The notes under the pieces: generated by a model
The model's input: the letters and a program-made list of their open reading frames with translations, nothing else
What the model was told of the DNA's origin: nothing
Database searches by the model: none
Translations under genes and position numbers: made by a program
In this document: piece by piece, positions 15,081 to 18,399 of the stretch
Layout of the letters: each line of letters starts with the position of its first letter
Numbering within the stretch: the first letter of the stretch is position 1
Origin: Chloroflexota bacterium
Lineage (GTDB): Bacteria; Chloroflexota; Dehalococcoidia; Dehalococcoidales; JAUVZV01
DNA: 33,871 bases
Assembly: GCA_030602375.1 (NCBI GenBank)
Contig: JAUVZV010000004.1
Coordinates: 1-33,871, forward strand
Reading direction: 5' to 3'

Positions 15081-15109
15081 TTGACAAATGTCCTAGTTGG
15101 TGTTATAAT
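15081..15109 (+). promoter_or_regulatory. Perfect consensus sigma70-type promoter upstream of the XRE fusion gene
   Basis: TTGACA (15081-15086) - 17 nt - TATAAT (15104-15109). Confidence 0.75.
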
Positions 15110-15132: not shown

Positions 15133-15192
15133 GTTGACTTTTTAGTCAACTTAACGGTGAATTTTGTCTAAAGTGTTGACTTTTTGGTCAAT
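15133..15192. promoter_or_regulatory. Two palindromic operator-like sites
   Basis: GTTGACTTTTTAGTCAAC (15133-15150) and GTTGACTTTTTGGTCAAT (15175-15192), starts 42 bp apart. Confidence 0.6.
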
Positions 15193-15248
15193 ATATGGTA
15201 AAAATATAGTTAGGGCTGTTAATCTGTAGCGAAGTGGAGGTAGGATTT

Positions 15249-17180
15249 ATGGAAGCTAAAGAGTTTGGAGCTAGGTTAAGACAGTTACGAGAACAAGCTC
15301 ATATAAGCTTGAGAGAGCTGGCAGGCAAGGTAGGCATTGACTTTACCTACCTTAGCAAAATCGAGAATGGGGTAATGCCTCCTCCTAGCGAAAAGGTTAT
15401 ACTGGCACTGGCTGAGGCGTTAGGTACTGACAGCGATGAGCTCTTTGCTTTGGCAGAGAGGATACCATCAGACTTGGCTGGGGTATTAAAAAATGGAAAA
15501 ACGCTGAAGCTCTTAAGATCAAAGCATACTAAGCAGACCAGTGAAGGGAAACCAAGTTTACCAAGTCTGACCAATTTAAGAAGTTTAGCTGGGAATTATA
15601 TAAGGTTCCCCGGTTCCAAGGTACTGGTAAGGACAGCAATAGCAACTTTCCTGGCGGTGGCTATAGGTGTCTCACTCTGGTTTGCGGCACCGGTTAAAGC
15701 ACTTGATATAACTCTTTCTGACCCCTCACCCACCGTCATTGGTGCTAATGTTTCTTTCACGGTAACAATTAGTATTGCAGACCAAGAGCTGTTACCCATA
15801 CAGAGCGTCACTCTTTACATATATGACGGAAGCAGTCGGGCGGCAGCTACTTATCTAGCTACCTGCAGCAATCTGCCACTGCAGACAACAGTTTCCCCCC
15901 ACTACACCCGTACTTCCGCGCAGACAGGGGGCGGTGCAGTTACTATCACGGCAACTGCAGCAACTGGTTGGGGCTATGGTTATGGCTATGGCTATGTTGC
16001 CTGGCAGAGTTCTGGGTACTCTTTCTTTACGCCTGGTGGTTATGGCTACGGTTATGGCTATGGGGCTGGGGCGACATCAATAACCTATAATGTCACCTGG
16101 GGTTGCCCATCAAATTGGTCTACCGGGAGCTACACTGCTGAGGCTTCGATTGCCGCTAATGGTCAAACTTTCGCCAACACCAAGGCGTTTAGCCTCTCTA
16201 CAGCAGCTGCTGGCGTACCGACGGTACCACCACCGTCGGGTATTACCAATGTTAGCGAGAATGTCAGAGCAGACGGTGTTTTCACCGATACTGTTGTCGC
16301 TAACTCTGATGACGGCAACGCTGCCCTTAGCATACTCAAGGGAACCAAAGGTCTTACTGAAGCTGGCGCGCCTTTAAGCACCATAAGCATGACTACGATG
16401 ACGGCGGAAGAACAGGCAGCACTACCGACACCTGCCCCAGAGAATATCGTCGTCCCTGAAGGTGTAGCTGTTCCGGCAGATGCCTACATCGTCAGCGTGG
16501 TCTACGATTTCGCTCCTCCTGGAGCTACCTTTAACCCACCGGCAACCCTGACCATCAGCTATGACGAGACACTCATACCGGCAGGTGTTAGTGAAGAGGA
16601 CCTGGTTATCGTCTACTGGAATGAAACAGCCGGAAAGTGGGAGGTGCTGCAGAACATCGTCGTTGACACGGCTAACAACACCATAAGCGGCGAGTTAAGT
16701 CACTTCACTGCCTTTACCATACTTGGACTTACAGAAGCACCACTACCGGCACCGGCTGCCTTTACACTCAGCTTATTAAGCATTTTACCGGCTGAGGTTG
16801 AGATTGGTGAGGAGATAACAATCAGTATCACGGTTGCCAATACTGGTGGTCAATCTGGCAGCTACGAAGCAACCTTAAAGGTAAATGATGTAGCGGTTGA
16901 AACTGAGATGGTAACACTGGATGCTGGTACCAGCAAGAAGGTGTCCTTCACCACCTCACAGGATACCGCCGGAACCTACACGGTAGATATCAATGGCACG
17001 ACTGGTAGTTTTGTAGTCAAGCCAGCACCACCTCCACTGGTACCACCGAAGCCAGTGGTTCCACCGGTAGTACCTCCAGTCGAACCAGTTATTAACTGGT
17101 GGCTCATTGGCGGTATTATTGCTGGCGTTGTAATCCTCGGTACCATTATTGCACTGGTTGTACGCCGTCGTAGAGCCTAA
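15249..17180 (+). CDS. XRE-family HTH protein fused to a signal-peptide-like TM, a Gly-Tyr-repeat/CARDB-like ectodomain and a C-terminal TM anchor
   Basis: FGARLRQLREQAHISLRELAGKVGIDFTYLSKIENG (HTH); RTAIATFLAVAIGVSLWFAAPVKA (TM/SP-like); WGYGYGYGYV and GGYGYGYGYG; C-terminal WWLIGGIIAGVVILGTIIALVVRRRRA. ATG at 15249 follows GGAGG. Confidence 0.85.
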   Translation: MEAKEFGARLRQLREQAHISLRELAGKVGIDFTYLSKIENGVMPPPSEKVILALAEALGTDSDELFALAERIPSDLAGVLKNGKTLKLLRSKHTKQTSEGKPSLPSLTNLRSLAGNYIRFPGSKVLVRTAIATFLAVAIGVSLWFAAPVKALDITLSDPSPTVIGANVSFTVTISIADQELLPIQSVTLYIYDGSSRAAATYLATCSNLPLQTTVSPHYTRTSAQTGGGAVTITATAATGWGYGYGYGYVAWQSSGYSFFTPGGYGYGYGYGAGATSITYNVTWGCPSNWSTGSYTAEASIAANGQTFANTKAFSLSTAAAGVPTVPPPSGITNVSENVRADGVFTDTVVANSDDGNAALSILKGTKGLTEAGAPLSTISMTTMTAEEQAALPTPAPENIVVPEGVAVPADAYIVSVVYDFAPPGATFNPPATLTISYDETLIPAGVSEEDLVIVYWNETAGKWEVLQNIVVDTANNTISGELSHFTAFTILGLTEAPLPAPAAFTLSLLSILPAEVEIGEEITISITVANTGGQSGSYEATLKVNDVAVETEMVTLDAGTSKKVSFTTSQDTAGTYTVDINGTTGSFVVKPAPPPLVPPKPVVPPVVPPVEPVINWWLIGGIIAGVVILGTIIALVVRRRRA

Positions 17181-17198: not shown

Positions 17199-17236
17199 AA
17201 AACAGGGTCACTTTAAAAAAGTGACCCTGTTTTATT
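17199..17236 (+). terminator. Intrinsic terminator
   Basis: AAAACAGGGTCACTTtaaaaAAGTGACCCTGTTTTATT, long perfect stem with T-tract. Confidence 0.88.
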
Positions 17237-17280: not shown

Positions 17281-18399
17281 TTAGTGAGTTGATTTTAGTC
17301 CCAGCTCAGAGCGAGCGCGCCAGAGTCTCAATAGGTTATCACGGGTGATAACCCCGATAACCCTATCCTGGCTTATAACGGGCATTTGATTTATATCACT
17401 CTCACTCATTTGTTCAAGCAAGCTCATAACATCCTGTTCGGGAGAAGCTGCCCGGAGGCGGTTAGCTGGAGTCATTATTTCATTTATCCGGGACGTATCC
17501 CAATTTTGTTTAGCAACCGTTCTTATATTATGTAAGGTTACGATGCCCTCTAACTTCCCTTGGTCAACTACGATAAAAAAGGTATAACCATTGGGAAGGA
17601 CGTGGTGTTGAACCAGTTCGCTCAGGGTAATATTTGGGGAAACTGTAGGATAGCTGGTGAGCATTACCTGTGAAGCGGTAAGCCCCTGCATGGCTTCCTG
17701 CCACTGAAGCTGGCGATAACTGGCTGAAGCGGCATTCTCCAGGAACCAGCCGATAAAGGCTAGCCATAAACCGCTAATAAGTTGCTCGGTCAAAAATACT
17801 ATTACAATGCCACCCAGTATAAATGAGTAGCCGACGCCACGCCCTACCTGGGTGGCGATACGAGTAGAGTAGGTGTAATTACCGGTAACCCGCCATAGGA
17901 TGGAGCGAAAAACACGCCCGCCATCAAGGGGGAAGCCTGGAATCAGGTTAAAGGCGGCTAGGGCTACATTTATCAGAGCCAGCCGCCCTAGCATTTCGGT
18001 TATAGGCTCGCTTATACCACGGGTGAATAGCCAGATTGAACCAAAAATCCCACCGATTACCAGGCTACAAATAGGACCGGCAAGGGCCATCTTAAGTTCA
18101 GCGTCGGGGCGTGTTGCCTCTTTGGTCATCTGGGCGATACCCCCAAAAATGAAAAGGGTGATGCTTCGTATCGGGATACCATGGGCTCGGCCAACAAGGC
18201 TATGGGCTAATTCATGAGCAAGCACTGAGGTGAAAAATAGCAGACTGGTAATAACACCCAAAATCCAGTAAGGTAGTCGAGACCAGTTGGGATAAACCAG
18301 GGAGACGGTTAGCAGAATGAAAATGATAAACCAGGTATAATGCAGCCGTAGCTGAATACCGAAGACCTTGCCTAAGTTAAATGCATTCCCCATCCTCAA
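17281..18399 (-). CDS. Site-2 protease family (M50) metalloprotease with two CBS domains
   Basis: VLAHELAHSLVGRAHG (HExxH), NLIPGFPLDGGRVFRSILW, C-terminal CBS pair. Confidence 0.92.
   Translation of the reverse strand: MRMGNAFNLGKVFGIQLRLHYTWFIIFILLTVSLVYPNWSRLPYWILGVITSLLFFTSVLAHELAHSLVGRAHGIPIRSITLFIFGGIAQMTKEATRPDAELKMALAGPICSLVIGGIFGSIWLFTRGISEPITEMLGRLALINVALAAFNLIPGFPLDGGRVFRSILWRVTGNYTYSTRIATQVGRGVGYSFILGGIVIVFLTEQLISGLWLAFIGWFLENAASASYRQLQWQEAMQGLTASQVMLTSYPTVSPNITLSELVQHHVLPNGYTFFIVVDQGKLEGIVTLHNIRTVAKQNWDTSRINEIMTPANRLRAASPEQDVMSLLEQMSESDINQMPVISQDRVIGVITRDNLLRLWRARSELGLKSTH

Follow-up and report, generated by a model that had tools for sequence, protein, structure and literature searches.

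Transmembrane transcription regulators (TTRs), among them ToxR, CadC and TcpP, are common, and few of them have been studied (PMC10269533). XRE repressors paired with COG2856 proteases represent another known class: the repressor ImmR of ICEBs1 is inactivated by ImmA (PMC2701414), and further pairs of an XRE protein and a COG2856 (M78) protease, including DdrO/IrrE, have been described (PMC10233336; PMC5552922). The locus considered here lies in a window of 33,871 nucleotides, i.e., the whole stretch of Chloroflexota DNA that was analysed, and touches on both classes. Feedback control of surface layers and adhesins is normally exerted by separate regulators. In the present case, the surface protein, its export signal and a putative repressor form one single polypeptide, and the reading to which we give fair, better than even, credence is that of a surface protein with a built-in, membrane-tethered repressor of its own gene, i.e., of autogenous control.

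The features of the locus are listed in Table 1. A frameshift, which the initial annotation had named as one way in which the fusion could prove illusory, is not present, as the frame from 15249 to 17180 on the forward strand is open throughout and yields an uninterrupted translation of 643 residues. The ATG codon at 15249 is preferred as the start over the GTG codon at 15234, which is the pick of an automatic ORF listing, because a GGAGG ribosome-binding site is located at 15235-15239, about 10 bases 5' of the ATG. As the gene has its own ribosome-binding site in front of this ATG and a hairpin past its stop codon, it looks like a stand-alone, single-gene transcription unit. The host draft genome comprises 0.86 Mb and is 74.6% complete.

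Table 1. Positions of sequence features at the fusion locus, numbered from the first letter of the window.
Feature	Position	Strand	Basis or remark
Upstream sigma-70-like promoter, TTGACA-N17-TATAAT	15081..15109	+	sequence
Operator copy 1, TTGACTTTTTAGTCAACT, 2 mismatches to the family consensus	15134..15151	+	perfect 7+7 inverted repeat GTTGACT-N4-AGTCAAC
Operator copy 2, TTGACTTTTTGGTCAATA, 3 mismatches	15176..15193	+	its TTGACT doubles as -35 of the proximal promoter
Proximal promoter, TTGACT-N17-TAAAAA	15176..15204	+	overlapped by operator copy 2
Ribosome-binding site GGAGG	15235..15239	+	sequence
Fusion gene (XRE, signal anchor, surface protein), 643 aa	15249..17180	+	ORF, translation, Pfam, homologs; stop codon included
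XRE (Cro/C1-type) HTH, residues 1-69, of the kind elsewhere paired with ImmA/IrrE proteases	15249..15455	+	Pfam HTH_31/HTH_3; relatives
Basic cytoplasmic linker, residues 76-124	15474..15620	+	10 K/R versus 1 D/E; low-confidence part of the AlphaFold model
Internal signal-peptide/signal-anchor segment, residues 125-151, ending S-L-W-F-A-A-P-V-K-A	15621..15701	+	helix 123-145; invariant residues
Predicted signal peptidase I site A151/L152	15699..15704	+	(-3,-1) rule, conservation; inferred cut
Family-specific Gly-Tyr beta-sandwich domain, residues 152-320	15702..16208	+	alignment, model
Second beta domain, residues 331-497, HFTAF motif from residue 485	16239..16739	+	weak fold match; motif position
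CARDB domain, residues 512-580	16782..16988	+	Pfam PF07705, E 4.3e-7
Pro-rich stalk, residues 591-616	17019..17096	+	sequence
C-terminal TM anchor and RRRRA tail, residues 617-643	17097..17177	+	helix 618-642; conserved NWWLIGGIIA...RRR
Terminator-like intrinsic hairpin, AAAACAGGGTCACTTT-AAA-AAAGTGACCCTGTTTT	17199..17233	+	sequence
M50 (site-2-protease-like) membrane protease with two CBS domains, convergent	17281..18399	-	Pfam Peptidase_M50, CBS

The XRE-type HTH that had been read into approximately the first 75 residues was borne out by Pfam, where HTH_31 matches residues 5-65 with an E value of 3.7e-15 and the Cro/C1-type HTH extends over residues 5-69. All significant Pfam HTH matches are of the Cro/C1 type, and the winged-helix family Trans_reg_C (ToxR/CadC) is not among them. 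The domain resembles the DNA-binding proteins SinR, C.AhdI and DdrO, and models of DNA-binding XRE proteins score 56 bits; the RodZ-type HTH_25 reached 20.6 bits and thereby stayed under its Pfam cut-off of 24.6 bits. The RsgI_N anti-sigma domain had no Pfam match in the fusion protein. The adjoining linker, originally described as polar, is present but basic rather than merely polar in composition. Two hydrophobic segments were identified (residues 125-146 and 617-638), and the AlphaFold model shows helices at residues 123-145 and 618-642 with beta strands in between. Both the translation and the first of these helices agree with the initial description of a hydrophobic segment running into PVKA/LD, within which S142, W144, P148 and A151 are invariant among the aligned homologs.

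The WGYGYGYGYV and GGYGYGYGYG tracts, the Pro-rich stalk and the final TM segment with its RRRRA tail, all reported at first reading, were recovered in the translation and the model, and the proposed CARDB-like beta domain is a Pfam CARDB match. Modelled alone, the Gly-Tyr domain adopts one beta-sandwich (pTM 0.78), and a fold search with it returned no structural match below E 0.001; searched as a whole, the protein matched many beta-rich proteins unspecifically. Residues 331-497 showed a weak, rank-2 fold match to the ZU5-ZU5-UPA region of ankyrin-B, and this second beta domain is possibly ZU5-like. Self-cleavage of some eukaryotic ZU5 proteins takes place at an HF[ST]-type motif. An HFT motif is also found in residues 331-497, where putative self-cleavage would offer an alternative route to splitting the fusion protein. 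The GPS-CTERM C-terminal model scored 13.9 bits against a cut-off of 28. One HTH-less homolog (L061) ends in LPSTGEP, a hydrophobic stretch and RRR, resembling a sortase-type sorting signal.

The initial annotation had considered the two-anchor layout unfamiliar and had allowed that homologs with the same fusion might not exist. The layout is real, but it is not unique to the host genome: in a survey of 156 genomes from the same order, the same fusion of HTH and ectodomain was found in about 15 (including G014, G072, G097, G129, G099, G081, G035, G135, G141, G025, G133, G131, G149 and G037), with 41-48% identity across the whole protein in many of them. The named relatives are MAGs of Dehalococcoidales/Dehalococcoidia and “Chloroflexi”; relatives on genome contigs were retrieved with an alignment query, while a single-sequence query gave none. 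Invariant residues comprise FG..L..LR and F.YLSK.E.G..PPPS of the HTH, IP.D.A..L of the helix that follows it, and GYGY 266-269, Y280, W284, P287 and S288 of the Gly-Tyr domain. In five loci (L138 and L141-L144), the fusion gene is followed by a conserved trio of genes coding for a protein of about 206 aa that is unknown, an exported DUF4129 protein of about 650 aa and a DUF4350 protein of about 290 aa. DUF4129 and DUF4350 families often occur within MoxR-type envelope gene clusters.

Modules have been exchanged within the family. The HTH and the internal hydrophobic segment are joined to TPR repeats in four further genomes (L147, L149, L151, L154), and L046/L122 carry them in front of another, longer ectodomain, so that Gly-Tyr domains, TPR or propeller-like parts are found behind the HTH-TM head; L150 carries two tandem HTHs in one gene. 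In a tree of the HTH, surface and TPR forms are intermixed, and the starred branches cannot be reconciled with fewer than two changes of label, which indicates that the HTH-TM head stayed constant as ectodomains were exchanged. Homologs of residues 126-319 that do not have the HTH, in turn, start with a Met codon just 5' of the hydrophobic segment (L047, L051, L061, L118, L119). The gene for the HTH-less protein of G147 is followed by a CPBP-protease gene of the same type as that downstream of the L148 fusion gene, and this correspondence suggests that the HTH was gained or lost at one locus. Between the HTH and the signal segment, six fusions (L141, L145, L148, L154, L122, L046) contain an ATG codon that is in frame and preceded by a good ribosome-binding site, and its position coincides exactly with the start of the HTH-less homologs; some relatives may therefore also produce an HTH-free form. 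This internal start is missing from the window gene. In other orders of the Dehalococcoidia, the same HTH is joined to apparent PAS and LuxR-type HTH domains (L063-L069; names assigned by eye from the sequence), and related operator-like sites were seen upstream of two of these genes (L064, L065).

The upstream palindromes reported initially exist as two inverted repeats of 16-18 bp at 15134 and 15176, and they belong to a family operator, TTGACTTTTTACTCAACAT, an imperfect inverted repeat TTGA-N8-TCAA that often occurs in two copies upstream of fusion genes. Within the window, two matches with up to three mismatches were observed versus 0.03 expected from dinucleotide-preserving shuffles, and none of 100 shuffles contained two. 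With two and three mismatches, the window sites are weaker than those of most homologs, yet more symmetrical. An alignment of 19 fusion genes revealed TAtAcT at +23, i.e., 17 bases past TTGACT, which identifies TTGACT as the -35 element of a sigma-70-like promoter. Operator positions 6-18 fall within the promoter spacer, where most reach 1.4-2 bits among these genes, and this conservation appears to exceed what the promoter alone would need. The best upstream site beats nearly all simple shuffles in 18 of the 19 genes (P <= 0.006), the exception being L046 with a related ATGTTGA-N7-TCAACAT repeat that is shifted by one base.

The operator is almost exclusively associated with the fusions. All 18 sites with zero or one mismatch in the 156 genomes are located just upstream of an HTH-membrane fusion, and at up to two mismatches 44 matches contrast with 7 for the reversed control pattern. 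A site with two mismatches in G150 precedes a gene starting MKSRGFGTKLRE, another family member cut by the contig end. In G097, the palindromic operator TTGAGTGGTTACTCAACAT is found just upstream of a gene for an HTH-less surface protein of 1186 aa (L118:1009-4614) whose start site resembles the internal start of fusion L046; this gene could be an in-trans target or the product of an HTH deletion. The remaining sites with two to three mismatches look like background, and a wide regulon was rejected on these grounds. A match with two mismatches near 1492 of L124 (G131:C134) stands some 44 bp in front of a frame for a 161-aa response regulator and could be a second target or due to chance. In two genomes of family f6 (L233, L234), TTGACTTTTCACTCAGCA is conserved in front of a gene for a MinD/CooC-like ATPase; this is probably an unrelated promoter. 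The fusion gene itself thus appears as the consistent target of the HTH, the comparison supporting no wider regulon, though further targets may have been missed as the genomes are incomplete drafts. It had also been considered at the outset that the HTH might be unable to bind DNA; the conserved, apparently cognate operator speaks against this.

The HTH is assigned to the XRE repressors that are usually paired with ImmA/IrrE proteases, an assignment that is new here. Outside the family, the closest relatives of residues 1-95 are soluble XRE proteins of 105-130 residues (45-62% identity) from Chloroflexota, Acidobacteriota, Planctomycetota, Verrucomicrobiota and Cyanobacteriota. In 44 of 63 loci of such soluble proteins, a frame with an HExxH motif (ImmA/IrrE, COG2856 type) lies within 1.5 kb downstream. 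Operator-like matches occur at 14 of 6,944 upstream positions in these 63 loci compared with 5 of 687,254 positions elsewhere in the same loci (0.2% versus 0.0007%), and TTGAC-N6-CTCAA is common to the soluble relatives and the fusions. This enrichment suggests that the operator came along when the DNA-binding module was recruited. The window gene has no adjacent ImmA/IrrE (M78) protease gene, its neighbours being of other families; PF06114 (M78 protease) gave no match in the 75%-complete host genome, and M78 genes are patchy among the other fusion-bearing genomes. An ImmR-type repressor module, operator included, would have been transferred from stress switches that work with a protease to a role in controlling envelope proteins.

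A possible split between VKA and LD had been pointed out initially and is plausible. The internal segment displays a basic n-region, a hydrophobic core and small residues at -3 and -1, and in the aligned fusions Ala at -1, Val or Thr at -3 and Pro at -4 are each found in 11 of 11 sequences; in the TPR fusions, the segment ends in AVAAN or AIAAN. In the HTH-less homologs, the corresponding segment stands at the N-terminus as a normal signal peptide, and a signal peptidase I gene was found in the host genome. Signal peptidase I thus probably cuts after A151 and separates the HTH part from the surface part, although the segment could also be left uncut as a signal anchor.

Strong support exists for the fusion, its conservation, its cognate operator and the near-exclusive association of the two. 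DNA binding by the HTH is deduced from domain and operator together, and repression rather than activation is suggested by the position of the operator, which covers the -35 element and spacer of a near-consensus promoter. In the proposed model of autogenous control, the N-terminal XRE domain would bind the inverted repeat over its own promoter and shut the gene down. The internal signal-peptide-like segment would insert the protein with its HTH in the cytoplasm and the remainder outside. Once cut by signal peptidase I after A151, the protein would be represented at the membrane by a short stub that carries the HTH and by the beta-rich surface part, which its own C-terminal anchor would hold. 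As one membrane-bound repressor would remain per exported surface protein, output could be matched to the amount made or exported. Relief of repression might, speculatively, come about by loss of the stub, the state of the ectodomain or a membrane protease. A bolder version, to which we lend only tentative credence, regards the stub itself as an “export receipt,” that is, as the regulator that counts delivered surface protein and shuts off synthesis; if true, the internal start in some relatives would yield surface protein without a receipt.

The initial annotation had proposed a one-protein surface sensor that reports envelope state to DNA. The architecture described there stands, namely one protein in which a DNA-binding head is followed by an internal signal-peptide-like segment and by a surface part with an anchor. 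The role of a general sensor does not: no ligand or signal was identified, and autogenous control is the better supported reading because the only consistent operator sits upstream of the gene itself. A related view is that of an uncut transmembrane regulator whose ectodomain senses a ligand or mechanical state and alters HTH dimerisation in the manner of ToxR/CadC. An HTH with one TM segment and an ectodomain is a common layout (PMC10269533), and the swapping of ectodomains behind the retained HTH-TM head, with at least two exchanges in the tree, is what sensor swapping predicts. However, such a regulator requires neither the invariant Ala at -1 and Val/Thr at -3 nor homology to true N-terminal signal peptides, a second, C-terminal anchor is unusual in receptors of this kind, and the 156 genomes revealed no regulon past the gene itself, which makes this view rather doubtful. 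Regulated intramembrane proteolysis in the style of RsgI/SREBP, by which a first cut would be followed by release of the HTH to the cytoplasm through the M50-CBS protease, is an unlikely scenario. It has a precedent in RsgI, where autocleavage is followed by RseP and ClpP (PMC12203970), and the convergent M50-CBS gene of the window recurs, along with a CPBP-type protease gene, near the L148 fusion; against it, M50-CBS genes are absent beside most homologs, such proteases are widespread housekeeping enzymes, and an HTH of the repressor type acts without needing release. The M50-CBS neighbour could remove the stub and is regarded as a candidate processing enzyme only; it was rejected as a proven partner since the synteny is not general among homologs.

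Two further explanations are weaker still. A structural HTH that does not bind DNA, as in RodZ, could draw on the shared order of an N-terminal XRE-like HTH and one TM segment and on the weak HTH_25 match, but the far better fit of DNA-binding XRE models, the resemblance to SinR, C.AhdI and DdrO and an operator that is always conserved upstream make it highly improbable, and it was rejected on account of this operator. That a small XRE gene and a gene for a surface protein were joined by assembly or annotation is scarcely credible: HTH-only and surface-only versions are both known among relatives, but the frame is open, the gene appears to be flanked by a promoter and a terminator of its own, and many independently assembled genomes show this very join. 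An assembly chimera was rejected because the fusion is conserved across genomes.

Autogenous control by a tethered XRE domain would set the fusion apart from the described systems that it resembles, and a search of the open-access literature found no membrane-anchored XRE autorepressor. The fusion would make it possible to study directly how a DNA-binding domain held at the membrane locates its promoter and whether information can be carried by a signal peptide stub, and with a near-invariant operator the idea is easily tested outside the uncultured host. Although it works like ToxR/CadC, RsgI and RodZ, it is a member of none of these groups. RodZ likewise combines an N-terminal XRE-like HTH with one TM segment. 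The HTH of RodZ serves the cytoskeleton, whereas the fusion has a conserved DNA operator and matches HTH_25 below the cut-off. RsgI-type anti-sigma factors share the cytoplasmic regulatory head, one TM segment, large extracellular domains and a possible proteolytic split (PMC12203970), but the head of the fusion is of the DNA-binding repressor type, no sigma gene partners it and a second membrane anchor is present. For cleavage after an internal TM segment there is a precedent in iRhom2, where eukaryotic signal peptidase generates a regulatory N-terminal fragment (PMC7618786); iRhom2 is, however, an unrelated, eukaryotic protein whose fragment is a nuclear cofactor.

With the ImmR/ImmA and DdrO/IrrE pairs, the fusion has in common a homologous XRE module and the operator TTGAC-N6-CTCAA, but its HTH is carried by an exported membrane protein and has no adjacent protease gene. 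TTRs such as ToxR, CadC and TcpP (PMC10269533) share with it a cytoplasmic DNA-binding domain, a TM segment and an extracytoplasmic part in one protein; as in TTRs, a recognised DNA-binding domain and at least one TM segment are found in the same protein, and the operator at its own promoter supports the view that the fusion regulates transcription while membrane-bound. It differs from ToxR and CadC by an XRE head in place of the winged helix, and from TTRs in general by a signal-peptidase-like site after the first TM segment, a second, C-terminal anchor, a large surface-protein ectodomain and a single supported target, its own promoter, with a near-exclusive self-operator.
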